Part shown: piece by piece, positions 21,401-62,300 of the stretch
Numbering within the stretch: the stretch's first letter is position 1
Layout: each line of letters starts with the position of its first letter
Source: Pycnopodia helianthoides
Lineage: Eukaryota; Echinodermata; Asteroidea; Forcipulatida; Asteriidae
Length of the DNA: 64,000 bases
Direction: 5' to 3'
Assembly: GCA_032158295.1 (NCBI GenBank)
Contig: CM063243.1
Location: 310,001 to 374,000 of the forward strand
Notes under the pieces: model-generated
Databases searched by the model: none
What the model saw: only the letters and a program-made list of their open reading frames with translations
Told to the model about the DNA's origin: nothing
Position numbers and translations under genes: made by a program

Positions 21401-24400
21401 TTCTGGATCTAAGATGTACACTTCCTTACTCTCTGTACCAACCACTATACAACTAAAATACCATCTTACCTTAGCTAAGATGGTGAATGCTTCTGGATCT
21501 AAGATGTACACTTCCTTACTCTCTGTACCAACCACTATACAACTAATGCCATCTTACCTTAGCTAAGATGGTGAATGCTTCTAGATCTAAGATGTACACT
21601 TCCTTACTCTCTGTACCAACCACTATACAACTAATGCCATCTTACCTTAGCCAAAATGGTGAATGCTTCTGGATCTAAGATGTACACTTCCTTACTCTCT
21701 GTACCAACCACTATACAACTAATGCCATCTTACCTTAGCCAAGATGGTGAATGCTTCTGGATCTAAGATGTACACTTCCTTACTCTCTGTACCAACCACT
21801 ATACAACTAAAATACCATCTTACCTTAGCTAAGATGGTGAATGCTTCTAGATCTAAGATGTACACTTCCTTACTCTCTGTACCAACCACTATACAACTAA
21901 TGCCATCTTACCTTAGCCAAGATGGTGAATGCTTCTGGATCTAAGATGTACACTTCCTTACTCTCTGTACCAACACTATACAACAATTGCCATCTTACCT
22001 TAGCCAGATGGTGAATGCTTCTGGATCTAAGATGTACACTTCCTTACTCTCTGTACCAACCACTATACAACTAATGCCATCTTACCTTAGCCAAGATGGT
22101 GAATGCTTCTGGATCTAAGATGTACACTTCCTTACTCTCTGTACCAACCACTATACAACTAAAATACCATCTTACTTAGCTAAGATGGTGAATGCTTCTG
22201 GATCTAAGATGTACACTTCCTTACTCTCTGTACCAACCACTATACAACTAATGCCATCTTACCTTAGCCAAGATGGTGAATGCTTCTGGATCTAAGATGT
22301 ACACTTCCTTACTCTCTGTACCAACCACTATACAACTAATGCCATCTTACCTTAGCCAAGATGGTGAATGCTTCTGGATCTAAGATGTACACTTCCTTAC
22401 TCTCTGTACCAACCACTATACAACTAATGCCATCTTACCTTAGCCAAGATGGTGAATGCTTCTGGATCTAAGATGTACACTTCCTTACTCTCTGTACCAA
22501 CCACTATACAACTAAAATACCATCTTACCTTAGCTAAGATGGTGAATGCTTCTGGATCTAAGATGTACACTTCCTTACTCTCTGTACCAACCACTATACA
22601 ACTAATGCCATCTTACCTTAGCCAAGATGGTGAATGCTTCTGGATCTAAGATGTACACTTCCTTACTCTCTGTACCAACCACTATACAACTAATGCCATC
22701 TTACCTTAGCCAAGATGGTGAATGCTTCTGGATCTAAGATGTACACTTCCTTACTCTCTGTACCAACCACTATACAACTAATGCCATCTTACCTTAGCCA
22801 AGATGGTGAATGCTTCTGGATCTAAGATGTACACTTCCTTACTCTCTGTACCAACCACTATACAACTAATACCATCTTCTTCTGCAGATGACTTCTTCAA
22901 GATATCCAGACATGTGATTACCGTCTACAAAGAAAGAAACTTAAATCCATTAGTAATCCATGCTACATTATTTACTCTTCAGTATCATCATACAGTCAAA
23001 GATAATTGCAGACTTTTCCTAGCAGGAAATTACAATCAGTCATTCCAATCATAATTTTCAAAAAGAATTGTCTGATTTTAACCAGTGTTCTAGACTCCAT
23101 GTACATTAAATGCAACATACTATGATCTATTAACACAACATTCAAGACACATAAAGGTTATCTTGATCCTGATTGATTGATTTCTTTCACACACCTGTCT
23201 TTTAATGGCAGTCTGTTTATGCAGTTGAGCGAAGTTCTCCATTTGTTCCTTGTCTCGTAGCATTAAATACCTGAACAGAACACAATGAAACACTCATTGA
23301 GTCTATTTACATTCAAGAAAAAATGCTTGATATTTTGTTTTATTGGAAATAAGTTAAACTAATATCTAAGTTACACTACTCATAGAATTTTTAAGGGTTA
23401 TTTAAATCATTGTTGTCCAAACAATAATCAAGTGATTATACTGATTGCAACTACTTGAGAATCGGTAGTTAACTAGGATGCATAAGATAAACTTGTTAAT
23501 CCTTTCTAAACTCAAACTCTGATGCAAAAAATCTGATTTGAGTAATCTAAAATCTCTGAAGATTTTATATCAGCTGACTTTCATTTATTTACTTCTTTCA
23601 TTACACATACAACAGTTCAAGCATCAATAACATGATGACTAGAAAATGTTGAAGAGATGTTCAGTTTTAGATGTGGGAGAAAAAACCCACGCAATCAGGT
23701 AGGGTCTGAAAACCCAATCCACGTTCAAGCTTCGGTCTGAGGTGGGATTCAAGCTTCGGTCTGAGGTGGGATTCAAACTTTGGTCTGAGGTAGGATTCAA
23801 GCTTCGGTCTGAGGTGGGATTCAAGCTTCGGTCTGAGGTGGGATTCAAGCTTTGGTCTGAGGTAGGATTCAAGCTTCGGTCTGAGGTGGGATTCAAGCTT
23901 CGGTCTGAGGTGGGATTCAAGCTTTGGTCTGAGGTAGGATTCAAGCTTCGGTCTGAGGTGGGATTCAAGCTTCGGTCTGTGGTGGGATTCAAGCTTTGGT
24001 CTGAGGTGGGATTCAAGCTTTGGTCTGAGGTAGGATTCAAGCTTCGGTCTGAGGTGGGATTCAAGCTTCGGTCTGAGGTGGGATTCAAGCTTTGGTCTGT
24101 GGTGGGATTCAAGCTTTGGTCTGAGGTAGGATTCAAGTTTCGGTCTGAGGTGGGATTCAAGCTTCGGTCTGAGGTGGGATTCAAGCTTTGGTCTGAGGTG
24201 GGATTCAAGCTTCGGTCTGAGGTGGGATTCAAGCTTCGGTCTGAGGTGGGATTCAAGCTTTGGTCTGAGGTGGGATTCAAGCTTCGGTCTGAGGTGGGGT
24301 TCAAGCTTCGGTCTGAGGTGGGATTCAAGCTTTGGTCTGTGGTGGGATTCAAGCTTCGGTCTGAGGTAGGATTCAAGTTTCGGTCTGAGGTGGGATTCAA

Positions 24401-27400
24401 GCTTCGGTTTGAGGTGGGATTTAAGCTTCGGTTTGAGGTAGGTTTAAGCTTCGGTCTGAGGTGGGATTCAAGCTTCGGTCTGAGGTGGGATTCAAGCTTC
24501 GGTCTGAGGTGGGATTCAAGCTTCGGTCTGAGGAGGGATTCAAGCTTCGGTCTGAGGTGGGATTCAAGCTTCGGTCTGAGGTGGGATTCAAGCTTCGGTC
24601 TGAGGTGGGATTCAAACTTCGGTCTGAGGTGGGATTCAAGCTTTGGTCTGAGGTGGGATTCAAGCTTCGGTCTGAGGTGGGATTCAAGCTTCGGTCTGAG
24701 GTGGGATTCAAGCTTCGGTCTGAGGTGGGATTCAAGCTTCGGTCTGAGGTGGGATTCAAACTTTGGTCTGAGGTGGGATTCAAGCTTTGGTCTGAGGTGG
24801 GAGTTCAAGCTTCGGTCCGAGGTGGGATTCAAGCTTTGGTCTGAGGTGGGATTCAAACTTCGGTCTGAGGTGGGATTCAAGCTTCGGTCTGAGGTGGGAT
24901 TCAAACTTCGGTCTGAGGTGGGATTCAAGCTTTGGTCTGAGGTGGGATTCAAGCTTCGGTCTGAGGTGGGATTCAAGCTTCGGTCTGAGGTGGGATTCAA
25001 ACTTCGGTCTGAGGTGGGATTCAAGCTTTGGTCTGAGGTGGTATTCAAGCTTCGGTTTGAGGTGGGATTCAAGCTGAGATCCACAGAGGTCAAAGACAGG
25101 AAAATAAACCACTAAGCCAACCTGATGCCCCCAATACAAAGACAGCTTTATAAAGATGTAGAAAGAAAGCTTTAATTTACAAAAAACATAATACCATCAT
25201 CTATATTTTACATATTTACCAAATACAAGAGAAAATGTACACATTTGACAACAATTTCTATGTGATAGCGATAAAGTACTCTTGTGGAGAGTGTGGAGAG
25301 TTCTTCCTGTGGATAAGATATAGCAGGAGTTTTTGTACCTGAGAGATCTGACTGTTAGTGCTCCTTCATTCCCCTCTCTTCTTATACTATCCAACATCTC
25401 TCTGAGTACAGTCACATCAATCTTATCCTGTAACAAAAACAAACAAGTGCATTATTCCTCAAACCCGCGGTACCTAATTAGGGCAGACGTCCCTCCGGAA
25501 CGTTGTCAGCACATGCTGACAAGTTTGTTCCGTTATACAAACTGCTGTAATCAAACTCAATCGAACAAAGACTGGAACGAATTCTCATCTGACGACACTA
25601 CAGCATCAGAGCAAAGTGTAGACTTGATAGATTCACATTAACTGTCACACACGAGAAAGTCTAGATTAGCTGAACCTGTTCATGAAACTACAGGATGAAT
25701 CAAGGGTCACATGTACTGCACATTACTGACAATAATAAACTAATAGCCATGAAAACATTGAGGTTATAAATACACACTGAAAGATTACACATTTATTATG
25801 CTTCATTGTTGTTTGAATGATATCATTATTCTTGTCATTATGACAAAGTTTCCAGGACAGTCAGGTAATTGGAAATGCTAAATGACTTCTATCAATTTGA
25901 AATATCAATACATCAATCATCTGATATGAGAAAGAGCCTGTCAGTGTACCATTCATCCCAGGCCAATCTATTTATACACAATGCCGGTTACATGTATACG
26001 TCTTCTTGTCATTTGAAATAAATTTAGAAAGCAACAACTACCTAAATTACCTCCAGCTAATATTGACATGACGTGAACTGGAAAAGCAATCAGACAGGTC
26101 GTTCAGACACAGCACTTAAGGCAGTTCTGACTCATTCGGGTTTAACTTTTGGTATCTGAACACTTTAAAACTTAACCGAAATGGGTTGAACCTGAATGAG
26201 TTAAATCGGTCGGCAAGGGTGGTTTAACGCTAAGCCACTTGGGTTTATCTTTTAGCATGGTGTGTGGACAGAATAAAGTTTACCACATCCGGTTTTAAGC
26301 CCTCACTGGTGACCACTGACCCAGGACGTGTTGCATAAAATGCCATAAGTTGTGAAAGCGTGCGTCTTTTGTACACGCTTGTTTATGTAAATGCAGGGTT
26401 TGTGTAAATGTAGCGGATGTTGCTGTGGGTCATGGTGCTGTTTGACCTCTTAAAACCGAAGATAAACCGTATCGGGATTAACTTCGAGCTGTCTGAACGC
26501 AAGGTAGTTTTATTTTTACGACCAACCCCCGCTGCTCATAAAGTTAAACCGGTTCGGGTCTAACTTTAGTACGCTGTCTGAACATGGCCAGAGATTCGAG
26601 GAAACACTGTAATATAACTTATAAGAATAATGAGAGACTAAGTGATAGGAAGAGCTTTAAAATACACTGGATTGCTTACCTCTTTTGCCTGGTTCCATAG
26701 GTCTTGTTCCACTGGGTTCACATCTAATGGTGGTAGAGTGAACTTGAAATATGGTCGTAGGTTCTTGTACACGTATAGATAAGGACCTGATGCTACTGCA
26801 ATGGCTACAAACAGTTAAAATATGTAAGAATCTTCAATCAATTCTAAAAGCAGATATCTTTACACCATTCTTCAAAGAAATTGGTTGACATTTTCTCACT
26901 CAGGCTAATTTGTGTTAAATAAGTACCCAGGTGAGCAACATTAGCCCAGCGTACATTGTCTAGTCCAAACTGCTACAGGCTAGTCAACACCACTTCTCAA
27001 CTTGCCCCGTGGGCTACTCAAAACTGTGCAACCTACTTGTTTAAAATGCTCATAATGTTTCCTTTTCAGATCTGAATATTAATAAATTTTATGAATAATA
27101 CACCAACTCGTACACCAACTCGTACACCGACTTGTACACCGACTCATACAACAACTCCTACACCAACTCGTACACCAACTCGTACACCAACTCGTACACC
27201 AACTCATACACCAACTCGTACACCAACTTGTACACCAACTCCTACACCAACTCCTACACCAACTCGTACACCAACTCGTACACCAACTCGTACACCAACT
27301 CTTACACCAACTTTTTACCAACTTGTTACACCAACTTGTACAGTGTTTGAGTCGGTGTACAAGTTGGTGTACGAGTTGGTGTACAAGTTGGTGTACAAGT

Positions 27401-30400
27401 TGGTGTACGAGTTGTGTAGTTGGTGTACGAGTTGGTGTACGAGTTGGTTAGTTGGTGTACGAGTTGGTGTACGAGTTGGGATAAACGTTGGTGTAAGAGT
27501 TGGTGTACGAGTTGGTGTACAAGTTGGTGTACGAGTTGGTGTACGAGTTGGTGTTGAGTTGGTGTACGAGTTGGTGTACGAGTTGGTGTTCGAGTTGGTG
27601 TACGAGTTGGTGTACGAGTTGGTGTACGAGTTGGTGTACGAGTTGGTGTACGAGTTGGTGTACGAGTTGGTATACGAGTTGGTGTACGAGTTGGTGTACG
27701 AGTTGGTGTACGAGTTGGTGTACGAGTTGGTGTACGAGTTGGTGTACGAGTTGGTGTACGAGTTGGTGTACGCGTTGGTGTACGAGTTGGTGTACGAGTT
27801 GGTGTACGAGTTGGTGTACGAGTTGGTGTACGAGTTGGTGTACGAGTTGGTGTTCGAGTTGGTGTACGAGTTGGTGTACGAGTTGGTGTACGAGTTGGTG
27901 TACGAGTTGGTGTACGAGTTGGGTACGAGTTGGTGTACGAGTTGGTGTACGAGTTGGTGTACGAGTTGGTGTACGAGTTGGTGTACGAGTTGGTGTACGA
28001 GTTGGTGTTCGAGTTGGTGTACGAGTCGGTGTACGAGTCGGTGTACGAGTTAATACATTTTTGAGCATGTGAATGTAACCATGGAGCTATAAAACCGTTT
28101 AACCATTAAACTGGTTGTGATCGCTAACAATAATACATCAGAAAGACACATTTATGACAATCCATGTTTCAAAACTTGGGCTACTAAAACTTCCTGTGGG
28201 CAAGTAAAATGCCCATATTATTAGCCCAGTGGGATACTTTACAAACAGCTTTAGTGCAAGGCCTAAAGATAGTTCCCAGTAGACGTAATCTTTTCGGGCA
28301 AATTGCATTTTGTCTTGCAGGTGCGTCAAACGCTCAACTTATTAACTGACCAATCCTGCAATGAGTTTCGTGAAATGCGCGCGTGTTGCACCCGTTCTCA
28401 CACGAAACGCACGACTGTTTGTTCTAAACTGCCCGTAAAGATGGCCAATTTACGTCATACTGCAACCTATCTATACCCCTACTTAAAACCTGGGTTAGCA
28501 TTCCGAGTGTTCATTTTCTTATTCAGGAAAATTACATCAAGTGTGAAAAAAAACATGAGATGGCAGTGGGGTTAAAATTCTTCTGGAATTTCCTGGGGAT
28601 TTATTTTTGGGAATCAGCTCAGCAGAAGTAAACAGGGCGTCAATTGTTGTCCTACATTAACACTGCATATCCATAGAGCTATAAACGTACATCCAAAGAC
28701 TGATACACAGATGAGATTTGATGTCTGTGTTAAGTCCTGATAATGGCTTGCAGGTCTGGGTTCCCCTCTCATTCTAGACCCAGAACCTACCAGATGTTAC
28801 AATTCAGGAGGTGTACAGACTCTGTGCATCACCAGAAATACACAACCACAGGTTTGGACACAGTGTGGACTATTTCTTTCTCCCTTTGGTGATTGCTTTA
28901 CTTCTTTCAACAAAATTGTAATGCTCAAGGAGATTTTCAGAAAACCCTGAAATCAGAAAAATCACGAGCCTGTGCATATCTGACTAACCAGCAAATAAGC
29001 TAATATAGTTTTACTAACTTTTGTCAGTTGTCAGATACAAGACAAAATGTCACATCCATGTGTTTATGAGAACATGGAGAGTGCATTTACCTGGTACTCT
29101 TGGTTCATTGGTGTCCATGAAGAACGTGCTGACACCAGTTGGTAGCTCAATGATGGTATTTTCACTCATGATACTGGTTCCCTTGTACACTTTCAGCTTC
29201 ATGTTATATGAACCGGTACCCAGATCCGCAATGACCAACTTGTTTTCACCATCTCCATTTATGTCTGAAAAGGCTGATTATGAAGAAAATAATACAAATG
29301 TAATATCCATAGGTTTTTTTATTAAAATATAGAAAATATGCACACACTACACTGGTTCATATTTTTTTTTAAATCAAATGATTGTATCACAAGGAGCAAG
29401 AGTATGAAAATATAAAAGACACATTGAGATAAAATGCAAATGTGGAGGAGGCTTGACTAAGGAGGATATAATTATGCAAAGATATCTGTTTTATTATCAT
29501 GCCAAATTAAACTTGTATAATTTCCATTTCCTATTCTGAACGGAACTTAAGAAGGAACTTTGAAGATGCTTGTCTAAACTTCAATTCTCGCTGAAATTTG
29601 TTTGAATGAAAAAGTCAATGCTTGATGCTCAAGGATAAAACAAACAACGGTTTTTACATTGGCATTTCACCTTCGCGTGTCGTGGCCGAGCGGATAAGAA
29701 CACCGGACTCAAGCTCTGGTGTTTCTGATCAACATAGGTGGGTTCGAGTCCCGGTCGTGACACTTGTGTCCTTTAGCAAGACACTTAACCGTTATTGCTG
29801 CATCCTTCGGATGGGACATAAAGCCATAGGTCCCGTGTGTTGTGTAATGCAGTAAAAGAACCCAGTTAATCTATCGTAAAGAGAAGGGGTTTCCCCGGTG
29901 TTCCTGGTTTGATTGGCAGCATATTGCGCCACAGCACCTTGTAAACCGTTAAGTGCAATAATATGCCTCATAAGAATAGGCCTCATACTTCAAATATGTA
30001 GCTCCACATGCATGGCAGGTAAAATACATGGTATATCAGCGCCTTGTATCATTTGGCAAAAGGCGCTTTATAAATACAGTTATTATTATTATTATTATTA
30101 TTTAAACTTGAGCAAAGAACTAGCAAGACCCACAACAAAACAGGGGTTGGACACCGTTTCCCTCTGGTCTGGTGATTTTCCTCACAAACTTTCAATTCTA
30201 ACTGCTTAAAATTTCCTTTCAAATTATCAAACTGTGCATGTTTCTGCAGATACAAACACCATACGTAAAACCTTAATAACCTATACCGTTTACAAGTTGT
30301 GTCTTTAGGATAGATTTACACTGTGTGGTGATAAAGATCAGATTATCAATCTCATTTCTTGCAAGTGTGATTTTTCCAAGATTACTGCTTATGTTAATTG

Positions 30401-33400: not shown

Positions 33401-36400
33401 TTTTCAAAGGCTAAATTACAACACAACGCTAAGCTTGGGCGATATTGCTTTTTCTCAGCCACGATATATCGTCGAGAATATATCGCGATATTCGATATAA
33501 TCGCGATTATTATTTTATGACGTCAATCTACTACAAATCTCACGGTGGGAGATGTGGCTATGATTAACCTAGCGTTTCTATCGTTATTCCAATCACCTAT
33601 TCTTCTGGTTTTACTCTGAACCTATGGTATGAAAACCTGGGCCTATTACTTTACACACATTTAATGTGTTAACTGCGCATGACAGACTGTTCTTTATGTG
33701 TGCATAGCTAATTAGATCACGCCACTCGCACGTCCGCAACACGCACGTGATAATGCACGTGATAACACCCGTCTGTGTGGGACCGCCTGACCGCTAAGGC
33801 TTTGATGTTGGTTTTTTCCGAAGACTAAACCCCGTCGGATCGAATCTGTTTGGGAATCTTGCGGTTGCGGTCTGTGACTTGCAACTCTTTGTTGCAGCAA
33901 ATCATCTCGACAAGGAGATTTATTGTTGCAATATCGTCTCGACAAGGAGATTTATTGTTGCAAGATCGTCTCGGCTAGGAAATACATCGCGATACTTAAC
34001 GATATCGCGATTTACCGATATCACGATTAAAAAAAACGTGACCCGATATCGTAATCGTTTCAGAACTAGTATCGCGATATTCGATAATATCGTGGTATCG
34101 CCCAAGCTTACACAACGCACGTCTACTGGTGTAACAGAAACAGTCAGGTGGAGAGAGGCATAAAAAAACATGGGATAAACAATGAAGAAGGACAAGAAGG
34201 GGGAAGAGGTTTAGGTCAATTCTCATTTAGTAGCTTCAAGATCTGTGATTGTTGTGTGACTACGAAACCAATGACCCCGGCAGAATCATATCACAATTTT
34301 TCTTTTGTCATTGAATTTATTCTTTTGGGGAAAACCTGCTACTGCAGCCATTATGTATTCAATGACTTCAATACTCGAATTTCATGTTAGAGAGGGCAAG
34401 GCCATTTTCATTTTGCAAAAGGGCACTTCAATTGGAAAGTCATTATGATGATTTGTTCATAACTCATCTTCCCTGCTTTCTTTTCTCTTGTTTGCTGATG
34501 ACACTACTATTATCTTCTCTAATTCTAGCTGTAATTGTCTTTCCTCCACACTCAACAATGAGCTCATCAAAGTCTCCTCCTGGTTCAAATCTAGTAAACT
34601 TTCTTTGAATCCTATTAAAACTAAATGCATCTTCTTCAATAAATCCAACAGTTTTCATTCTAATTCTTCCATCCGCATCGACAATACTCCAATTTCTATT
34701 GTCCGCTCTACGAAATTCTTGGGTGTCACTGTCGACGATAAACTCAGCTGGATTGAGCATATTTCAATGGTCACAAAAGTCGTCTCTCTATCTAAGCTTC
34801 GTTCTTTTCTTCCACCTTCTACTTTAGTTTCTCTTTATAACACACTGATTTTGCCTTATCTCAATTATTGCAACATTGTTTGGGCACGCTCCAGTAACAA
34901 CAACCTTCATTCCCTTACTACCATTCAAAAACGGGCCATTCGAATTTGCACCCTTTCGCACCCCTGGGCACATACAGCGCTTCTTTTCGCTTCGCTGCAC
35001 ACTCTAACGCTCTTTGACATTGCACAAAATTAGTTAGTGGCCTGACGTTTCTACCCTATCACTACAGAGTCTTTCTCGAAGGCTAAAACAAAATTAAAAT
35101 AAACTACACACAGGGATTTTTATGTACAAGCACATTCACAACCTTCTTCCTACAAGGTTTTCCTCTTATTTTTCTGCAGTTCAAACCATTCACAGTCATA
35201 ACACCAGATCAAACCACCACCTATTCTCTGAACACCTTGAGATTTTACGGACCTCCTCTTTGGAATGGTATCGATGGCAAGATTAAGTCAGGGTCATTTG
35301 TGGGTTGTTTTAAGAACTCTTACAAAAAACATCTTGTCTCGAATTATCTTGAGTGACTTCTTCTCTTTTCATCCTTCCCCTCTATGAGTTTCTAGTTATG
35401 AACTACCTTCTTGTTCCATCCTAGCTTGTTAAGTAGCATTTTCTTTGTTTGTTTGTCCTGTTTCGTTCCTGTCTGTACGTTCTGTTGTACCCTAAGTTCT
35501 GTTCAGAAGTCCACATGTTGTTTTCCAAGGCATTTCTATATAATAATACTTTGTCTTTTGAATAGGCCCCTATGCCTCCATATTTGCCTCTGTTTCATTC
35601 ACTTTAAATCATTGTGTCTCATATAATTTTTATTCTAGTACTAGTAGTAGTTCTTTAAACATCTTTGATCAATACACCTTCTTTATAATTATTTCTATGT
35701 ACATTTTGCATTATGGAAGTAAATGTCGAATTGAATTGAATTGTTCAGTCACTCATTGTACCAATGTTCAGTCATTGTGAAAGTCATAATAGCACAATAA
35801 CCAGTGAACATTTTCTGCGTTACGTTGTCTAAAAAACTACTCATAACTTCTCTATAATTTTTCTGACTGAGTTAATTTGTGGAGACAGTCAGTATTGCTA
35901 ATATTTACATCAACCATCGTGTATTTTTGAAAGTTTTGTTGTTGTAAAAACAAATATTATGGGGTTGAACAAAAAAAATTGACTAGAGCGGGATTTGAAC
36001 CAACGACCTCCGGATTAACGTACCGGCGCTCTACCAACTGAGCTATCTAGCCCTATATTGGCGGTCTCCCTATTTTGTCAATATCTTTGTTCGGGGGTGC
36101 CAGTCAGAAGCCATACAACCGTTAACTGCCGTGTAACCAGGGATCACACCCAAGTTTACGATACAACCTGGGAAGCAGCAGCCACGGGATCACCTTGAGG
36201 GGATGCGACTTTTTCAATTTAAATGTCAAGTAATAAACCACAAGGGAAACTGACTGGGTAAATTTCAAATAGTATGGGGGTTGAACAAAGAAAAATTGAC
36301 TAGAGCGGGATTTGAACCAACGACCTCTGGATTAACGTACCGGCGCTCTACCAACTGAGCTTTCTAGCCCTATATTGGCGGTCTCCCTATTTTGTCAATA

Positions 36401-37317
36401 TCTTTGTTCGGGGGTGCCAGTCAGAAGCCATACAACCGTTAACTGCCGTGTAACCAGGGATCACACCCAAGTTTACGATACAACCTGGGAAGCAGCAGCC
36501 ACGGGATCACCTTGAGGGGATGCGACTTTTTCAATTTAAATGTCAAGTAATAAACCACAAGGGAAACTGACTGGGTAAATTTCAAATAGTATGGGGGTTG
36601 AACAAAGAAAAATTGACTAGAGCGGGATTTGAACCAACGACCTCTGGATTAACGTACCGGCGCTCTACCAACTGAGCTTTCTAGCCCTATATTGGCGGTC
36701 TCCCTATTTTGTCAATATCTTTGTTCGGGGGTGCCAGTCAGAAGCCATACAACCGTTAACTGCCGTGTAACCAAGGATCACACCCAAGTTTACGATACAA
36801 CCTGGGAAGCAGCAGCCACGGGATCACCTAGAGGGGATGCGACTTTTTCAATTTAAATGTCAAGTAATAAACCACAAGGGAAAAAAACAAATATGAAACA
36901 AAAATAAAGGAGAAATGTCATGTCTGAGAGATTATTATTCATACTATTTTTGTGAATCAATCAATAAACAATCAACATTTATAACATTACATTGCAAGGT
37001 TTTATTTACATGATTTAGTTTCAAACTTCTTGTAATTATAATACACATGAGGAAGTTAAAAGGCTTTGAGCCGAAGGCGAAGGACCATGGGATGGGATTG
37101 AACAACGAAGAATTTGGGTCTGTCGGTGTCATTTGTAAAACAATTCCGTCACAGCGGCACAAGTGAAGTGACATTCATTAAATTCTCTACAGTTTTTTAT
37201 AAAATATTATACACAATTCTGATCCTACAATTCCCGCGAATAAAGTACCTACCTGCCGTCACTATTTGGAAGTTGTGAGGTCATCTGAGAACTGTTGTTG
37301 TCGACTTCTGCAGTCAT
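12461..37317 (-). CDS. BBS1: Bardet-Biedl syndrome 1 protein (BBSome subunit), 14 exons, complete
   Basis: Exons in order: 37253-37317, 31210-31289, 29091-29273, 26680-26804, 25339-25427, 23195-23270, 22793-22924, 20910-21016, 17098-17217, 15486-15644, 14069-14296, 13211-13344, 12889-13022, 12461-12634. About 602 residues, against 593 in human. Family matches run throughout: [20 protein letters not shown] (exon 2), [12 protein letters not shown] and [10 protein letters not shown] (exon 4), [12 protein letters not shown] (exon 7), [10 protein letters not shown] (exon 11), [14 protein letters not shown] (exon 14). The family folds as an N-terminal beta-propeller with a C-terminal adaptin-ear-like part, and works in the BBSome carrying membrane proteins to and from cilia. 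Junctions 9/10, 11/12 and 13/14 each lack one base under strict GT-AG splicing; adding one G restores frame each time. Exons 2, 7, 9 and 10 adjoin tandem arrays carrying copies of their splice edges. The start is the first ATG of exon 1 ([10 protein letters not shown]), whose phase fits exon 2. Confidence 0.93.
13560..13910. repeat. 12-bp minisatellite (CACTGGGTCCAC) in BBS1 intron 11
   Basis: About 28 units of CACTGGGTCCAC with indel variants. It gives Trp/Gly/Pro-rich ORFs on both strands that are not genes. Confidence 0.9.
14590..15070. repeat. Interspersed repeat, also at 56800-57310
   Basis: Shares blocks with the second copy: GGAGTCCAATATGGATAA / GGAGTCCATTATGGATAA, then ATTGGAC…GCAGC(G/A)TCATTCC, and an end with GTCCAGATTTCACCT and a TTCCGCAACAACGCACTCAT type block. 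The 122-residue ORF at 14613-14981 lies inside the repeat and is not called as a gene. Confidence 0.6.
15645..16690 (-). repeat. Tandem array of ~210-bp SINE-tail units abutting BBS1 exon 10
   Basis: Five units; the marker AGATATAAC starts at 15651, 15859, 16069, 16280 and 16494. Each carries the SINE 3' part (AGCACCGTGTAACGGATTAC, ATAACGCTTTATCATAC). On the minus strand each unit contains the 3' splice-like string TATATCTACCTAG/GGTA; the leftmost one is the acceptor of exon 10. Single-base differences between units are frequent. Confidence 0.85.
16691..16965 (-). repeat. SINE head (tRNA-like) on the minus strand
   Basis: Read leftward it has a B-box-like GGTTCGAGACACGG and a tRNA-like leader (GAGCGATCAAGCGCAGTGG), and the leader block is duplicated (two copies around 16801-16880 and 16885-16950). 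It continues into the tail array at 15645-16690, so together they are one SINE whose tail has been amplified. Confidence 0.65.
17167..19475 (-). repeat. 105-bp array, ~22 units, carrying the BBS1 exon 9 3' splice site
   Basis: The marker CCAACTGG starts at 17167, 17272, 17377, 17482, 17587 and so on to 19371, spaced 105 bp apart (one unit has a 1-base loss near 17745). On the minus strand each unit has intron sequence (TTAATGATGTTAATAACATG), the acceptor GTGTTATAG, then about 50 bases of exon 9 coding ([17 protein letters not shown]). Only the leftmost unit continues into the rest of exon 9 ([11 protein letters not shown]). Units are almost identical, which implies recent expansion or homogenisation. 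Confidence 0.95.
19478..19735 (+). repeat. Interspersed repeat, GCCTGACRTTTCGAC family
   Basis: Starts GTTGTTAATTGCCTGACACT, then TCGACACTAGCAAAGTCTTC and AAAGGCTAAATGACACCACA. The same order of blocks occurs at 32884-34235 (interrupted), 35029-35090 (short) and 43022-43112 (inverted). It begins at the edge of the 105-bp array. Confidence 0.65.
19740..19993. repeat. 254-bp MITE with TTAA duplications and a GC-rich internal hairpin
   Basis: TTAA at 19736-19739 and 19994-19997. Termini GGCCTGCGCTAAACGTCGCAC and the matching inverted GTGCGACGTTTAGCGCAGGCC (shown here as the family's ends, 21 bases less the flanking AAG/CTT). Inside is a near-perfect hairpin GCCGTGTAGCACGGC…GCCGTGCTACACGG. TTAA duplication suits piggyBac- or Kolobok-type transposition. 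Confidence 0.75.
21200..22892 (-). repeat. 88/90-bp array, ~18-19 units, carrying the BBS1 exon 7 5' splice site
   Basis: The marker GATGGTGAATG lies at 21272 and onward to 22448, 22538, 22626, 22714 and 22802; the period is 88 bp, or 90 in units with an extra AA. On the minus strand each unit is 28 codons of exon 7 ([20 protein letters not shown] then AFTILAK) followed by the donor GTAAGATGG, with only four intron bases before the next unit. The rightmost unit is the genuine end of exon 7. The exon interior (AGAAGATGG) and the intron start (GTAAGATGG) share AAGATGG, a plausible microhomology for the first duplication. Confidence 0.95.
23730..25078. repeat. 24-bp minisatellite in BBS1 intron 5, ~56 units
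   Basis: Unit GGTCTGAGGTGGGATTCAAG plus CTTC, with T/C and G/A variants. Because 24 is a multiple of three, long frames stay open on both strands (484 residues minus, 457 plus). They are simple repeats of LNPTSDRS or GFKLRSEV with no start context or homology. Confidence 0.95.
25428..26679. other. BBS1 intron 4, no recognisable element
   Basis: No tandem repeat and no exon seen. The 26110-26590 part has several TTTAACC/GGTTAA-like blocks and a CTGTCTGAAC motif repeated near each end (about 26495 and 26573), which suggests an old degraded element, but no clean termini could be read. Confidence 0.4.
27091..28053. repeat. Strand-switching 12-bp minisatellite (giant palindrome) in BBS1 intron 3
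   Basis: From ~27099 to 27340 the unit is ACACCAACTCGT (about 20 units). After a short break (CAGTGTTTGAGTC, ~27339-27352) the array continues to 28053 as the reverse complement, GTACGAGTTGGT (about 58 units). The first arm can therefore pair fully with part of the second. Long Thr/Pro-rich or Tyr/Glu/Leu/Val-rich ORFs here are by-products. Confidence 0.95.
28290..28450. repeat. Interspersed repeat, also at 57780-57935
   Basis: Shared blocks: GGGCAAATTGCATTTTGTC / GGCAAATTGTATTGTGGC, CGTCAAACGCTCAACTTATT / CGTCAAGCGCTCAAATTATT, TGCAATGAGTTTCGTGAAA / TGCAATGAGTTATGTGAAA. No termini identified. Confidence 0.55.
29668..30103 (+). repeat. tRNA-derived SINE, full length, in BBS1 intron 2
   Basis: Head 29678-29765 has a tRNA Leu/Ser-like A box (TGGCCGAGCGG) and B box (GGTTCGAGTCC) with a long variable region. 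A unique body follows (GCATCCTTCGGATGGGACAT, AGCGCCTTGTATCATTTGG). The 3' end is GGCGCTTTATAAATACAG plus (TTA)n. It sits in the opposite orientation to BBS1. Relatives: 15645-16965 and 61770-62045. Confidence 0.85.
30640..31235 (-). repeat. 89-bp array, 7 units, carrying the BBS1 exon 2 5' splice site
   Basis: The marker TCATGCAAG starts at 30676, 30765, 30854, 30943, 31031, 31120 and 31210. On the minus strand each unit has the end of exon 2 (NLYTFSSCM) with the donor GTAAGTTTT, then intron sequence. The unit at 31210 is the genuine exon 2 end; the other six lie downstream in the intron as decoy donors. Confidence 0.93.
31390..31655 (-). CDS. Possible alternative first exon of BBS1 (88 codons), or exon of an unknown gene
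   Basis: ATG at 31655 ([16 protein letters not shown]…), open to a donor AG/GTACATG at 31390. An in-frame TAA lies just upstream of the ATG, so it would be a first exon. It ends in phase 2, the same as BBS1 exon 1, and could splice in frame to exon 2 only 100 bp downstream. That would replace the 21-residue N terminus with an acidic, hydrophilic one. I do not recognise the peptide. Splicing compatibility is seen; use is inferred and could be chance. Confidence 0.35.
31685..31942 (+). CDS. Unrecognised 85-residue ORF divergent from the alternative exon
   Basis: Starts 29 bp from the ATG of the minus-strand exon at 31655. Composition is acidic and protein-like ([15 protein letters not shown]… ending [14 protein letters not shown]). 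No homologue recognised, no clear splice donor, stop at 31940-31942. It may be spurious. Confidence 0.2.
   Translation: MSTSNLLSDQYTADDKVHKTDVNSELMIYSDTGDNLSSYLFDDQHNSEPLSALVKTLDDQDFDSCLQVDLTVIFVPPFEEEQTLG
32913..33389. mobile_element. 477-bp inverted-repeat DNA element with TA target duplication
   Basis: Starts GGGGTGCACCCCACT and ends with inverted AGTGGTGTGCACCCC, flanked by TA at 32911-32912 and 33390-33391 (CTAG could also be the duplication). TA suits a Tc1/mariner-type non-autonomous element. No transposase ORF. Confidence 0.75.
33430..34110. mobile_element. 681-bp non-autonomous hAT-like element with 8-bp target duplication
   Basis: Perfect 15-bp terminal inverted repeats TAAGCTTGGGCGATA…TATCGCCCAAGCTTA, flanked by the direct 8-bp duplication CACAACGC (33422-33429 and 34111-34118). 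Subterminal regions are rich in TATCGCGATA-type palindromes. An 8-bp duplication is the hAT hallmark. The middle (~33700-33970) includes CTCGACAAGGAGATTTATTG repeated. No transposase. Confidence 0.85.
34465..35743 (+). mobile_element. 5'-truncated non-LTR retrotransposon (CR1/L2/Rex-like), decayed
   Basis: Begins inside the reverse transcriptase with the catalytic FADD motif (LLFADDTTI). Thumb-region blocks follow ([46 protein letters not shown]). The C-terminal part resumes after a small insertion as [14 protein letters not shown] and, in another frame, [17 protein letters not shown] to a stop near 35356. The 3' end is a short (GAATT)n tail at ~35728-35743. Frameshift and truncation make it non-functional. 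It lies in BBS1 intron 1 on the opposite strand. Confidence 0.85.
35029..35090 (+). repeat. Short GCCTGACRTTTCGAC-family fragment inserted in the LINE
   Basis: TTAGTGGCCTGACGTTTCTA followed by CAGAGTCTTTCTCGAAGGCT interrupts the LINE protein between LFDIAQ and FMYKHIHN. The string ACAAAATTA occurs on both sides (about 35024 and 35088) and may be a target duplication. Confidence 0.55.
35957..36890 (-). repeat. Three tandem ~316-bp units each with a tRNA-Asn-like sequence
   Basis: GGGGTTGAAC starts at 35961, 36277 and 36594. Each unit has a tRNA-like element on the minus strand (35980-36052, 36297-36369, 36614-36686) and a shared non-tRNA part (ACGATACAACCTGGGAAGCA and so on). AAAAACAAATAT flanks the whole array at ~35947 and ~36884, so one target duplication appears to bracket all three units. 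Units 2 and 3 are closer to each other than to unit 1. Confidence 0.85.
35980..36052 (-). tRNA. tRNA-Asn(GTT)-like sequence, probably a SINE head or pseudo-tRNA
   Basis: 73 nt folding as a near-complete cloverleaf: all seven acceptor pairs (GGCTAGA with TCTAGTC, including one G-U), A box TAGCTCAGTTGG, B box GGTTCAAATCC. The anticodon loop ACGTTAA gives GTT but has C instead of the usual U at position 33, and the anticodon stem has a T-T mismatch. Two further copies in the next units carry GCTTTCTAG instead of GCTATCTAG. I treat it as repeat-borne rather than a functional gene. Confidence 0.4.
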
Positions 37318-46735: not shown

Positions 46736-48239
46736 TTCTTGTCGTTGTTGCTGCTGTTGTTTTATTGTTATTATTGTTTAATTATTAGTTTAATTGTTTT
46801 GTGTGTCCAGTGTGGTGAGCCAACCAGTGGCGGCACCAGACCTGTTAATCTGGGGGGGGGGGGGGCAAACTTAAATTTAGGGGGAAAACAAAAGTCTATA
46901 ATGTACTGTATAAGCCTACAATTCACTCCAGAAATAAGATTTTGCACTGTGTGAATGTGACGTGTTGTGCGAACTGCGTGTACAATGGCTGCTTACGGTT
47001 TGGGGCAGACAATGCATTTCTATTTATAGCAAGTTTCCAAGCTCGTACAGATAAATAAATCCACATTTTATTAACATTGCCGGAGATGGAAAGTGTAATG
47101 GGCTTTTTTGATGGTGCCAGCTAATTATGATGGATGAAATTGAGTTTATTATTTACAGCGCAAACAACATTGTAACAAATTGGGTGCAACATGGTTTGGG
47201 ATTAAACTCAATTTCCGCCGGGGAAAAAACTGGGGGGGGGGGCAAAAAAATTACTGGGGGAATTTGCCCCCCCCCCCCCCGTAGCGCCGTCGCTGGAGCC
47301 AACCTGTATGGCCACGAGGCGATTCTGAGCTAGAAGGGGGCGGCACCCCTCCTCCACCTTATTGGATTTCCAAAAAGTAGTTTGTCGATCTTTGGAGTAG
47401 CTTATTATCTCTTCCCACCCCCACCCCCTTCAAAAGAAGAACTCAGTCATATTGTAACAAGCAGACATAAACTGATGTGACACACGGTCTGCCATGATCA
47501 CAGCGTCATTAATGATCACAGCTCAGTTAATGTTCTACCCATAGATTTACGCAGAAGAGTCCTTCAACTCAAAGGTCAACCATTATTATGTCGAATATTA
47601 TGCGCAGTATATGAATCATTGTGGAACTGCCTCCTTTCACGTTCAAGTCTACACAAGCTTCCGTGTGTGTTTTAGCTCGTGGACATTTTTTGTAATCGAC
47701 GGTTTCGGGGCGGGCAGTCGCAACCCGTATTTTTGGAGGATCAGACCCCCGGGCTAAGGTGCTTGAGATGACCTCTCGGTTGCGCTCAACCGCTACCGGA
47801 TCGAGGACGGGTAGCAGCAGTGATGGTCAAAAACATGAGTCTGTTTCACCGCCGCGTTCACAGGTAGGCACCCAAGTCTCGTCGTCGTGTCGATCTTTTA
47901 CGCCTACCCTATGGTAATGTTCACCATTGAATTTCTAGTGCACAGATTCATAGGCCATTAGTTATTTACATGAGGCGAAGATTTCCCGGGGGATGGTATA
48001 GAGTTTTATGAAAATTTATCGAAATAAAAACTTCGAAAAAGCTCGCCTGCAAGTGCTGCGCAATACAGTGTTTAATTTGTATTACAATTTTTAACCAAGA
48101 GAAGAAGTTTCACTCCTCTCGAGACAATCCCTAGAGAAATGCCGCGTGCATCAAACTTCAAAGAGTCAGAGTTTAATTGGTTTGGTCAGATCCCCGACTC
48201 TTATAAGTTATATCAGGAGAACGAACGAATGAACGAAAT

Positions 48240-56300: not shown

Positions 56301-59300
56301 TGGATAGGAATTTGATTGTCGCTCCTTAAAAACGCCTTCGCAGCCACAGATTTGGACATAGATGTACACCACAAATTGCCTAAAATACTAGGCTAAGATG
56401 AAAACTCCCAAATTTGACTCCATTTCAGTTGCAAAGAAAATCACTGCCAAGGCGAAGACAACAAGGGGAAAAGCTGCAGCTAAACCTGGCAAGAGAGGGC
56501 GTAAACCCTTGAAGAAAGAGAAGAAAGCATCCAAAGAAAAGGCCAAGAAGAAAAAAGAGAAAAAGGTGAAAGAAAAGAAGAAGGCAAAAGAGAAGGTTCA
56601 TCCGAATGACAAGCTCGTCCAGAGGCCAGATATTGAAGTGGTGCAAAAGGATCCAATGTTTGAAGTCAAGTAAGTGGCATTGGTATTTCCCATTGTAAGT
56701 TGGGGAACCAGGTGGTGGGGAAATTTTTCTTATGCAGTTTTATATTTTTATCTCATTCTTTGTTCTTCTAAAATATTTAAAGAAGTATATTGCATATTAT
56801 ATACCACACACAGAGATGCTTGTCATTTGATTGGTGGAACACGCATCACGTGTCATCCAATAATTTGCCATGTATTTACCGCTGCGACACTCCACAATTT
56901 GATATTGGAGTCCATTATGGATAATTATTGGACGATTCGCAGCATCATTCCTAAAGTAACCGCTCCCTGCCTGTTTCTCAAAATGAGGCAAGGTAGTTTT
57001 TACGGCATACAAGATTGGTGTCGACATAGAGTCATCCACGTTTAAGTTTTTTAAAAGAATTTTCAGAGTTTGCGGTCGAAGAGTCTATTAGGTGTCTATT
57101 GTGAACCAATTTCAAATGACAGGGATCTATGTGTGAGTTTTATATAACAAATATTGAATGAATTTCATTTGTGCATTGTCGCACAATATAATCACATGGT
57201 GAAATCTGGCCATTCCAATTCACTTGGTTTTGCTTTGTGAAATGTCCAAAATAGTCCAGATTTCACTTGGTGATTATATTCTGCGACAATGCACTCATCC
57301 AATATTTGTAAATTAAAATGATGCATCTGAAAATTTCTAAAACAAATTATTGGTTTGTTGCTCTATGGATCTAAATTATTTGTGCAAATGATTTCATTTT
57401 GGTGTTGTTGCTAAAAGAACTGAACATCAAATTACTTAAATAATTGTAATCTCGGCTGTATTTCACAAAGCGCTAAGATTCATCTTAAGATGAGTTGTGA
57501 TTATCACCATAGTGATTTGTATTGTGACATCACACTCTGCTTAGCAGTTTAGATTGATACACATCTTGAGACCAATCTTAGCTCTTTGGGAAATGAAGCC
57601 TTGGACATGCAGAAGAAAATTATTTTTTTAAAGATACAGATCAAGTTAAAAAGAGTTATTAGATTACAAACAAAAAATCATAATGCTTAGATCATCTAAA
57701 AATATACACAAATGTATAAACAAAATCAGGTTAGAGAGAATTTCCAATCCAGTAGATAGATTGCAATAGATGCCATCTTTACAGGCAAATTGTATTGTGG
57801 CTTGCACGCTCGTCAAGCGCTCAAATTATTAACGCGGCCACGTTATTCACTAATCAATCGTGCAATGAGTTATGTGAAACTGCACGCCGTTCTCACGCGA
57901 TGGTTGATTGAAGTCATAGTGCAACCTATTAATACATGTTTTGATTGTGAATCATATCAGGAATGAAAACGAGATGCCAGAGGTATCCAAGTTTGTCTTG
58001 TGCAAACGCTCTATCAGGGCAGTTCTTACCAATGACATCCCACTCCTCAAGAAGCTGGTGGACAACAAAGAGGTTCCTGATGTTATGCTCAATCGGAGTA
58101 ATGATGTGAAACTATCTGCCTTGGATTATGCTGTGAGATTGGAAAACCAGGCTGCTTTGAAGCTTTTGCTACCCGAGATGAGCAGTTCCAAGCAACGTGC
58201 CAAGCTACCTGAGGTTATCATGCAGCATCAAAGCCGTGGAAGGTGAGCTCATATTAAAATTATCATAATTTAGTATTGAGATCTAAGATATGAGTAGCTC
58301 TAAGGGCAACATGCTGTTAGAGAAAGGTGAAGACGATGTGAGGATGTTAGTTTGTCTTACTGAGTGTTGATTTCTTCCATGGCTAGGTATAACTTCTTGA
58401 GCCTTAGTCATGCTGTTAGAGATAGGTAAAGATGATGTGAGGATGTTAGTTTGTCTTACTGAGTGTTAATTTCTTCCATGACTAGGTATAACTTCTTGAG
58501 CCTTAGCCATGCTGTAATAGATAGGTAAAGATGATGTGAGGATGTTAGTTTGTCTTACTGAGTGTTGATTTCTTCCATGGCTAGGTATAACTTCTTGAGC
58601 CTTAGTCATGCTGTTAGAGATAAGTAAAGACGATGTGAGGATATTAGTTTGTCTTAGTGAGTGTTGATAGGTAAAGATGATGTGAGGATGTTAGTTTGTC
58701 TTACTGAGTGTTGATTTCTTCCATGGCTAGGTATAACTTCTTGAGCCTTGGTCATGCTGTTAGAGATAGGTAAAGATGATGTGAGGATGTTAGTTTGTCT
58801 TACTGAGTGTTGATTTCTTCCATGGCTAGGTATAACTTCTTGAGCCTTGGTCATGCTGTTAGAGATAGGTAAAGATGATGTGAGGATGTTAGTTTGTCTT
58901 ACTGAGTGTTGATTTCTTCCATGGCTAGGTATAACTTCTTGAGCCTTGGTCATGCTGTTAGAGATAGGTAAAGATGATGTGAGGATGTTAGTTTGTCTTA
59001 CTGAGTGTTGATTTCTTCCATGGCTAGGTATAACTTCTTGAGCCTTGGTCATGCTGTTAGAGATAGGTAAAGATGTTGTGAGGATGTTAGTTTGTCTTAC
59101 TGAGTGTTGATTTCTTCCATGGCTAGGTATAACTTCTTGAGCCTTGGTCATGCTGTTAGAGATAGGTAAAGATGATGTGAGGATGTTAGTTTGTCTTACT
59201 GAGTGTTGATTTCTTCCATGGCTAGGTATAACTTCTTGAGCCTTGGTCATGCTGTTAGAGATAGGTAAAGATGATGTGAGGATGTTAGTTTGTCTTACTG

Positions 59301-62300
59301 AGTGTTGATTTCTTCCATGGCTAGGTATAACTTCTTGAGCCTTGGTCATGCTGTTAGAGATAGGTAAAGATGATGTGAGGATGTAAGTTTGTCTTACTGA
59401 GTGTTGATTTCTTCCATGGCTAGGTATAACTTCTTGAGCCTTGGTCATGCTGTTAGAGATAGGTAAAGATGATGTGAGGATGTTAGTTTGTCTTACTGAG
59501 TGTTGATTTCTTCCATGGCTAGGTATAATACGTATCTGTCGGATAGGAAAGAGATTGAATAGTTCTTACTGAGTGTTGATTTCTCAGGGCTAGTAACTTC
59601 TTGAGCTGGTCATCGTTCAGAAGGTAAAGATGATGTGAGGATGTTAGTTTGTCTTACTGAGTGTTGATTTCTTCCATGGCTAGGTATAACTTCTTGAGCC
59701 TTGGTCATGCTGTTCGAGATATTAATGTTGGCAGAGGCAGCAGAGAAGGTAACAATGCCTTTACAAAGGTAAGTTTAATTCTTGTCAAATTCGTCCTTTA
59801 ACACGTTGACTGCCGCCTACGAGTATTTTCGTAGTAACAGGTGTAACGGATTCTGCCACTACGAGTATACTCGTAGGGAATGAAAGGGCTTTGTATTGTT
59901 AATTGAATACACTGGCATCACTGAGCACGCAACAAATACGCTTCTGGCAGTGGTGAGGACATACATCCTTAGAATGTGTATGTTCAATTTTTTTTGTGTA
60001 TATTAGCTATTTGGTATGCACGCATGCGCACTGCACTTGGCAAATGGGAACGCCCATTGAATCTGTGACGGCAGTCAACGAGTTAACCCCCCCCCCCCCC
60101 TTCATAAGCAATCTAACTGTATAATTGCATCAATGATTACTCGATATTAGACACCTGAATTCTTGAGCAATTTGGTTGGCTAGTGCATCAAGTGCTCACC
60201 TTTGCGACAATGCACTTATATGCATCCAATATTTATATAATTAACGTTTAACATTTGCACCATTGCTACTTCCATGGATGTAGGATCTTGACTATCATAA
60301 AGACGAGGACGAATACATACTGCAAGCGATGACAACTGGAGTTTCTCTTAAAACCATTGAGTTTATCATGGCCACCAACCCAGATCATAAGGTGAGCTGT
60401 CAGTAGTCTAGTCAATACATTGTCGTGTGCCGGCAAGAAGGGCATAAGGCTCTTCGCCCTTCTTCCAGGTACACAAAGAACTTGTTTCCAGTAACAAAAG
60501 GCCGTAAGCAATAAAATGGCTCCTGACAAAAAAGAAATGTTGCATTAATGTTACATTTTTGTTGATAGAATTATCTCAAAGAGATGTTTTCCCATTCCCA
60601 TGCAGAATTTAACCATCCTATGATGACTAATGAATGGCAGAAAACCGATCAAACTGTCACTCTCGGTTGTCTTGAAACACAATTTTTCACATTAATTACT
60701 TACGCCCTTTCTGTGGTAACTTTTCGATACGTCCTTCTTCAACACGGCAACATATTTACAGCTTTTCTGTTACATTATTCATTCATCAATTCACTGTCAT
60801 AGCTGTAAAACACTGTTAATTTGGTATTTTTTTCAAGCAATAATTACAGTAGTTATTTTATTTCATGTGTTTATAAGAAGTTAGTTTGTGCTTGTGATGT
60901 TTACCTTTGTAAGAAAGATATGTAGCCCTACATGAAAGTAGACATAAAGCATCAGGGATAATGCAAGGTCATTTGCTCTCTGCACTTCTGCCTGTCTTGA
61001 ACTATACAGTATGCTAGGTAGAAGATACTGTTAGCAGTTTCCAATCACTTCCTGAGCCTTGCCAGTCTGTTCTACCCAACAACTGTTTCCAGTAGGATGC
61101 ATTTTTTTTCATAGCAATCCTTAATAACTTCCTTAATATCAAGGTGTCTAGCTGTTTGATTGTTTGTTTTTATTTTTGATATCTAGTACCTTGTGGAAGA
61201 AAATATTGTTGTTGCAGTAAAAGCAGGTCATCGATTGTTAGCTGGTCGTCTGATCCAAAAATGCAATCAATCTGGTGGACGCTACTTTAATAAACTACAT
61301 GAAGAGGTGAGAGTCATTATTAAACTATTTATCATATTAGCACGCATACCACCCGCAACCACCCTGACTGTTACTCCTCAAACCATCCGCAACCACCCTG
61401 ACTGTTACTCCTCAAACCATCCGCAACCACCCTGACTGTTACTCCTCAAACCATCCGCAACCACCCTGACTGTTACTCCTCAAACCATCCGCAACCACCC
61501 TGACTGTTACTCCTCAAACCATCCGCAACCACCCTGACTGTTACTCCTCAAACCATCCGCAACCACCCTGTCTGTTACTCCTCAAACCATCCACAACCAC
61601 CCTGACTGTTACTCCTCAAACCATCCGCAACCACCCTGACTGTTACTCCTCAAACCACCCGCAACCACCCTGACTGTTACTCCTCAAACCACCCGCAACC
61701 ACCCTGACTGTCGAAGGTATTCAAGGAGCTTGAACAAAGAGAAACATTTAAGACTTTTTACATTTTTGAGTAATGAGAACGATTGATGTAGCACCTTGTA
61801 AGGGTTTACAAGATGCTGCGCTGCATTAGCAGCCACTGCTATAAACACTAGGGCAAACCCCCCTTCTCTTAGCGATAAGAATAACTGGGTTCTTTTACGT
61901 GCATTACACAACACGCGGGACCAACGGCTTTAAGTCCCATCTGAAGAATCAAGCGATAATGGTTAAGTGTCTTGCTTAAGGAGTGTCAACACCGGAACTT
62001 GATCTCACACTCTGCTGATCAGAAACACCAGAGCTTGAGTTCATGTGTATAAAAGTGACAACCATCGTCGGTATTCATGAACAAGGCTTAAGATTATGGT
62101 TTCATTTGACCTTTTAGTTGAAAAATACTCCAAATTGCCCAAAGCACAGAAAGAATAAAATAGCAATTATTAGGGAGACATTTCTTTGTTTAATTATTGT
62201 AATTAATTAACTATCTATGGTTCATTATTTACAGGTGCTCCTGGTTGATAAACCTGAGGATCTGTCTCCATTCAAAGCAATATCCGTCAAGAAGAAGCCC

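Follow-up and report, generated by a model that had tools for sequence, protein, structure and literature searches.

The host gene and its intron 6

The stretch of DNA analyzed here (the window: 64,000 nucleotides (nt), C1:310001-374000 in the 479-Mb, 742-contig genome of the sea star Pycnopodia helianthoides) holds part of a gene that, judged by its homologs, is a pme-5/tankyrase-like poly(ADP-ribose) polymerase (PARP) gene of a sea star near Asterias. Within this gene, intron 6 (1441 nt) is nearly filled by a 99-bp minisatellite that continues across the boundary into exon 7 (58310..59721, plus strand, in window coordinates as used below) and was delimited with Tandem Repeats Finder (TRF), unit alignment and a genome search.

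A spliced model of 11 exons was placed in the window, and its top match was the protein "poly [ADP-ribose] polymerase tankyrase-like" of Asterias rubens (91%, with 281 residues searched), followed by proteins of other sea stars at 70-71%. The Asterias rubens ortholog (P0010), for which the precomputed Pfam domains comprise ankyrin repeats, a WGR domain and the PARP catalytic and regulatory domains, aligns to positions 47768-100687 in 46 blocks and runs past the window end; the part of the gene inside the window yielded Ank_2 only in a domain search. The ortholog domains and the Asterias match thus agree with the original prediction, which had called the gene PARP-like from the window alone. 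Its exon numbers are too low, since the ortholog alignment adds an upstream exon at 47768-47863, and "exon 7" is at least exon 8; we have retained the first numbering throughout. Exon 6 (57961..58242, plus strand) ends in phase 2 at the donor AAG/GTGAGC, as placed by the spliced model and by the ortholog alignment with its junction. The true exon 7 (59684..59768, plus strand, 85 nt) was placed by the spliced model and the ortholog alignment, and has the donor AAG/GTAAGT and the same acceptor as the copies described below; exon 8 follows at 60284-60391. The host gene still appears functional: of the 45 junctions tried, 40 resolve without a stop, and identity to Asterias rubens is 66-100% in the ortholog blocks printed, which had been filtered to exceed 60%.

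Structure and turnover of the array

TRF identified 99-bp arrays from 58310 to 59528, and a row with a period of 297, corresponding to three units, extends to 59721. One unit consists of the final 60 nt of intron 6 and the initial 37-39 nt of exon 7, and 12 extra copies of the acceptor AG/GTATAA consequently precede the true exon 7 acceptor at 59684. The 12 near-identical acceptors are tandem copies and not chance occurrences. In 11 of them the acceptor is followed by an open 39-nt mini-exon and a GT, and unit alignment and site scoring placed these mini-exons on the plus strand at 58387..58425, 58486..58524, 58585..58623, 58731..58769, 58830..58868, 58929..58967, 59028..59066, 59127..59165, 59226..59264, 59325..59363 and 59424..59462 (mini-exons 1 to 11, each beginning at its acceptor); the twelfth acceptor is at 59523. 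The donor reads TAG/GTAAAG in 10 of the mini-exons and TAA/GTAAAG in the one at 58585. Each copy could add 13 amino acids, the repeat RYNFLSLGHAVRD, and enters and leaves in phase 2, in agreement with exon 6 and exon 7 in the spliced model. The array with its acceptor copies, its 39-nt mini-exons and their phases had all been described in the original prediction and was recovered by TRF, unit alignment and the spliced model.

The description of every unit as complete applies to the 11 copies just listed and fails in three places. The left partial copy (58310..58386, plus strand), of whose first 14 nt 13 agree with exon 7, has a donor-like AAG/GTGAAG directly after these and no acceptor. The segment from 58585 to 58730 comprises a unit and, after it, a 47-nt fragment that lacks an acceptor. 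Finally, the copy at 59523..59623 (plus strand) has its acceptor and lacks a GT at the end of the mini-exon; it shows about 19 gaps against the consensus, mostly of 1-3 nt and one of 10, in about 136 consensus positions. The two units that precede it have identities of 99 and 100%. This copy looks like uncorrected long-read sequence, and the copy number of the array is therefore not to be trusted. It is also what speaks for the idea that the array itself, or its copy number, was made by misassembly, together with the report that one of the published amphioxus arrays of a similar kind was misassembled in a draft genome (PMC3087553). We regard such an artefact as very improbable, given that substitutions, some shared between copies and others private to one, are arranged in order along the array, and that comparable arrays are present at further boundaries and in further genes.

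The identity between units is 99-100% in the middle of the array and 94-97% on the left, and this combination of a similar center and a diverged edge resembles the turnover of a minisatellite. The changes were counted by hand, with the two defective copies (those at 58310 and 59523) and the 47-nt fragment excluded: 5 of the 39 positions in the mini-exon and 7 of the 60 in the intronic part have changed (P = 1, no difference), and the five distinct mini-exon changes comprise three replacements and two silent changes according to a by-hand reading of the alignment. A search with the 99-bp unit against the Pycnopodia genome gave 15 matches, all in the array, by which a dispersed repeat was rejected; only the best candidates were scored, and absence elsewhere is not proven. 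As a side observation, the minus strand of the array (58654-59565) also gives a 303-amino-acid open frame of 33-residue repeats, which is probably a by-product, arising because 99 is a multiple of three.

We consider it probable that the array is a minisatellite of the type named "mirage" in amphioxus, derived from the tandem duplication of an intron-exon junction, and that its copies are normally skipped.

Splice-site strength and size limits

If the host gene works as it appears to, the splicing machinery must usually ignore the copied sites of its boundary-spanning arrays (see below). We extend this to the 99-bp array, where the junction in most transcripts is probably 58242-59684. In competition with an 85-nt exon 7 that has a strong donor, the acceptor copies would be at a disadvantage, as the mini-exons they open are very short, end at a weak donor and would be separated by introns of 60 nt. 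Skipping may perhaps be achieved by exon definition.

Splice sites of the sea star were scored with a weight matrix for vertebrates. On this scale, the mini-exon donor TAG/GTAAAG scores 5.5 and the TAA/GTAAAG variant at 58585 only 1.7; real donors, of which 11 were placed in the window, range from 5.9 to 11.9, with the highest value for the donor of the true exon 7. The mini-exon donor had been called strong, which is not correct, as it falls below all 11. Sizes were compared with those in three gene models, for which 14 of the 132 junctions tried did not resolve automatically and three in the host gene were added by hand. None of the 121 modeled introns is as short as 60 nt (minimum 100 nt, four below 250 nt), and none of the 108 modeled internal exons is as short as 39 nt (minimum 59 nt), an exon figure that is biased since exons well below 45 nt would escape the protein-to-DNA search on which the models are based. 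The intron length reported for another starfish, Plazaster borealis, is 1,261 bp (PMC9270726).

Each unit also contains a second donor, GAT/GTGAGG, 11 nt downstream of the first, and its use would give a 50-nt frame-shifting exon with in-frame stops. Read-through from each of the 11 copies tested likewise reaches a stop. Frame neutrality of the unit therefore depends on the use of the weaker donor. These same features could suggest that the array tunes expression, in that the acceptor copies are sometimes used with the 50-nt donor or with none, resulting in early stops and transcript decay, so that array length sets the output. The second donor scores 7.1 against 5.5 for the mini-exon donor, and a variable number tandem repeat (VNTR) in human ABCA7 is reported to change splicing with its length (PMC5954066). 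The difference in score rests on a vertebrate matrix, though, and we find this explanation improbable. Recursive splicing, with the AG/GT acceptor copies reused as donors, was also considered and is a weak candidate, GTATAA scoring 1.6 in place and 3.1 when joined to exon 6.

Homologous proteins and the possibility of a mini-exon cassette

In the protein, the RYNFLSLGHAVRD segment directly precedes RGxxEGNNAFTKD, the motif that is best conserved in the family. The family set comprised 67 sequences (66 proteins found and the query), 62 of which have the motif as written; P0035, P0046, P0054, P0065 and P0066 do not and were left uncounted. The distance between the preceding glycine and the motif is 16-19 residues in 58 of the 62 sequences, and exactly 17 in 47 of them. 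Among the remaining four, P0007, P0042 and P0064 start within or after the segment and P0063 differs, so that the spacing at the insertion point is 16-19 residues in 58 of the 59 sequences where it is measurable. No tandem copy of the segment was found in the 62 sequences with the motif. The paralogous PARP gene on the same contig has a homologous exon that is also 85 nt long, and its upstream intron contains no TRF array and no second copy of the acceptor.

Several observations argue against the normal skipping of the copies. The acceptor copies equal the true acceptor in strength (5.6, an average value, as 42% of the 121 modeled acceptors score no higher), and the first of them lies only 144 nt from exon 6, such that a first-AG rule would pick the copies. 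The mini-exon donor could work, since 16.5% of the 121 modeled donors score 5.5 or less. Frame neutrality is also rare by chance: given that such a duplication has happened, 1.9% of 20,000 simulated units had a mini-exon that was open, frame-neutral and followed by a donor of at least 5.5, and a donor of at least 5.5 was present in 8% of random units of the same design. Lastly, when the homolog P0003 was modeled with AlphaFold2 (nine sequences; mean predicted local distance difference test score, pLDDT, of 81), the segment fell in residues 119-149, a stretch between helices with a pLDDT below 50, and an insertion there may be tolerated. Despite this low-confidence stretch, the relatives compared have no insertion at the segment.

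One could therefore envisage a real alternative cassette, from which 0-11 mini-exons are spliced in, so that the PARP protein would vary in how many RYNFLSLGHAVRD repeats it contains. Such a cassette would account for the 11 copies that are open, in phase 2 at both ends and provided with a GT donor, as well as for the rarity of such frame neutrality in the simulations, and a precedent is found in the repeated 27-nt exon 2 of the SmPoMuc genes of the schistosome (PMC2576457). It is difficult to reconcile with the lack of a tandem copy in the 62 homologous sequences, the tight spacing beside the best conserved motif, the weak donor with a better competitor that gives stops, and a mini-exon part that shows no sign of constraint. 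We consider the cassette doubtful. Under the preferred explanation, in which the copies are normally skipped, leaky inclusion of mini-exons is possible, and occasional inclusion would leave the reading frame intact.

Similar arrays at other exon boundaries

Tandem arrays were mapped in the three gene models at a period of at least 20, at least 1.9 copies and at least 80% matches, with periods and boundaries entered by hand. Arrays that span an exon boundary make up 6 of 15 in the host gene, 2 of 13 in the PARP paralogue and 2 of 10 in the unrelated gene for the axonemal dynein DNAH3, 10 of 38 in total. In the host gene, and with window numbering continued past 64000, these are, besides the 99-bp array, two acceptor arrays with units of 123 bp (68025-68489) and 80 bp (76520-76843, plus a second block at 76141-76458) and three donor arrays with units of 49 bp (70739-70963), 45 bp (21 copies, 81362-82307) and 72 bp (86294-86502). 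In the 45-bp array, the exon donor is followed by 20 copies, each unit ends in CTTTGCAG/GTTAGT or nearly so, and one site thereby resembles an acceptor together with a donor. The paralogue has acceptor arrays of 123 bp (C1:989307-989647) and 108 bp (C1:932524-932771), and an acceptor array in DNAH3 (C3:26741066-26742619) has nine extra copies of one acceptor upstream of the true one, at intervals that are mostly 153 or 161 nt. The two 123-bp arrays are located at homologous exons of paralogues about 0.6 Mb apart, and their units differ by a single base while the outer flanks differ, which points to gene conversion between them as likely.

In eight of the nine other boundary arrays, use of any copied site tested would shift the frame or meet a stop; this includes read-through from each of the nine DNAH3 copies, and for the 108-bp paralogue array it holds in the frame that matches the Asterias rubens protein. 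The sole exception is the 72-bp array, in which later donors would extend the protein in frame by 24 residues per copy (24 or 48). The original prediction had offered two roles for the mini-exons, as a source of length-variable protein or as decoys that are to be ignored. Because the copied sites in eight of the nine arrays would be damaging if used, and also in view of the 62 homologs without a tandem copy, the size limits and the free change within the mini-exon, we favor the role as decoys, and less so that as a source of protein variation.

We compared the number of spanning arrays with that expected if seeds are placed at random, a null model of our own design applied to a host gene that was chosen because of such an array. 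The observed and expected numbers are 6 of 15 and 1.1 in the host gene (P = 0.0003), 2 of 13 and 0.7 in the paralogue (P = 0.16), 2 of 10 and 1.1 in DNAH3 (P = 0.32), and 10 and 3.0 for all 38 arrays (P = 0.0003). Without the 99-bp array from which we started, 9 of 37 arrays are spanning against 2.8 expected (P = 0.001), and 8 of 35 against 2.6 if the second 80-bp block and the 123-bp copy in the paralogue are also removed (P = 0.0024). Before the two 123-bp boundaries were verified, the counts were 5 of 15 in the host gene (P = 0.0013) and 1 of 13 in the paralogue (P = 0.45). With the TRF period of 475 retained for DNAH3, where the acceptor copies are 153-161 nt apart, the result is 2 of 10 against 1.7 (P = 0.54). 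The excess of boundary arrays over random placement is suggestive and comes mainly from the host gene. A bolder hypothesis is that minisatellites are born or kept preferentially at splice junctions in the sea-star genome, with the result that several percent of its introns bear copied splice sites in rows, and that the PARP mini-exons are spliced in at a low level and form a graded, heritable source of length variants; we think it unlikely that this combination holds.

Tandem arrays are also abundant elsewhere in the window, where 21 arrays with a period of at least 12, picked by hand from the TRF output, cover about 18.5% of the 64 kb. A 24-bp array of 56 copies (23639-25115) has open frames on both strands (490 amino acids on the minus and 470 on the plus strand). 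Two adjoining 12-bp arrays (27099-28051) have consensus units that are reverse complements up to rotation. A 317-bp unit is repeated 2.9 times (35951-36883), and ARAGORN calls one tRNA-Asn inside it (35980-36052, minus strand).

Relation to known systems

The closest parallels are the mirages in amphioxus, which are minisatellites across intron-exon boundaries in Adh3, the globin genes BflGb6 and BflGb9, TnC and PGBD5, for which reverse transcription PCR suggested regular splicing (PMC3087553; PMC3902484). As in the BflGb6 mirage, the 3' end of the intron is repeated together with the 5' part of the exon, and as in the amphioxus mirages generally, AG/GT signals occur in many copies and the central units are homogenized. 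The sea-star array shares three features with these elements: a unit that spans the boundary, the pattern of turnover, and splice signals in many units (12 acceptors and 11 GT donors). It differs in its host, in having 12 extra copies compared with 6 and 3 in the BflGb6 haplotypes (PMC3087553; PMC3902484), and in that each intact copy is a complete frame-neutral mini-exon. Splicing was checked by reverse transcription PCR in amphioxus; the sea-star array was studied at the level of DNA.

Other systems share individual features. In the potato RdRp gene, a duplicated segment contains a 3' splice site and the start of an exon, and a cryptic GTAAG donor ends the new exon (PMC4974935). The 99-bp duplication similarly carries both AG and GT sites; the potato case is a single duplication spliced as a real intron and exon, whereas the sea star has a dozen copies. 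The VNTR in intron 18 of human ABCA7 likewise includes a real splice site of the neighboring exon, but there the donor is repeated in 25-bp units, the retention of which shifts the frame, while the sea star repeats the acceptor and the exon start (PMC5954066). Exon 2 of SmPoMuc in Schistosoma mansoni resembles the array in its tandem short frame-neutral exons (27 nt), and is distinguished by genomic units of about 1 kb and by repeats that are seen in transcripts and proteins (PMC2576457). In humans, it has been suggested that internal repeats at exon-intron boundaries may form new introns (PMC2812944).

Origin of the array

We propose that the array arose by tandem duplication of a segment in which the terminal 60 nt of intron 6 adjoin the initial ~37 nt of exon 7, and that this segment would then have been expanded and homogenized as in other minisatellites. 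On its left side, at 58310, the array opens with CATGCTGTTAGAGA; this stretch agrees with exon 7 in 13 of its 14 nt, and the donor-like AAG/GTGAAG comes directly after it. The first step may therefore have been unequal exchange or slippage at such microhomology, between short matching stretches of which one was intronic and the other exonic. An exchange of this kind would join the start of exon 7 to an intronic GT and create a 39-nt mini-exon by accident, in one step. It would also explain, without selection, the silent AGA/CGA difference between the copies and exon 7. We considered this difference as a sign of selection on the mini-exon and dismissed it, because the copy at the left edge in the intron already has AGA and descent suffices. 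Exchange at the CATGCTGTTAGAGA stretch appears to be the simplest account, with the reservation that a truncated older copy would look alike.

Implications

As far as our literature searches reach, the sea-star array would extend the mirage type of minisatellite to a new phylum. In these searches, judged mostly by titles and the start of abstracts, the term mirage was used in this sense for amphioxus only, and no case of a boundary-spanning minisatellite in echinoderms was present among the entries listed. What distinguishes the array from the known mirages is its eleven open frame-neutral mini-exons. It also constitutes a natural experiment on splice-site choice, in which 12 near-identical acceptors are set against a thirteenth that differs mainly in what lies downstream, and such acceptors in different downstream contexts offer a means to separate exon definition from first-AG scanning.

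The recurrence of boundary-spanning arrays is a wider and more interesting result than the single array. With 10 of 38 arrays with periods of at least 20 in three sea-star genes, such minisatellites are now found beyond amphioxus, and tandemly copied splice sites occur at 10 of the 132 junctions tried, or about 7-8% of the introns sampled. If boundary arrays are common, they would provide raw material for the gain of introns and exons, which could be caught at an early stage.

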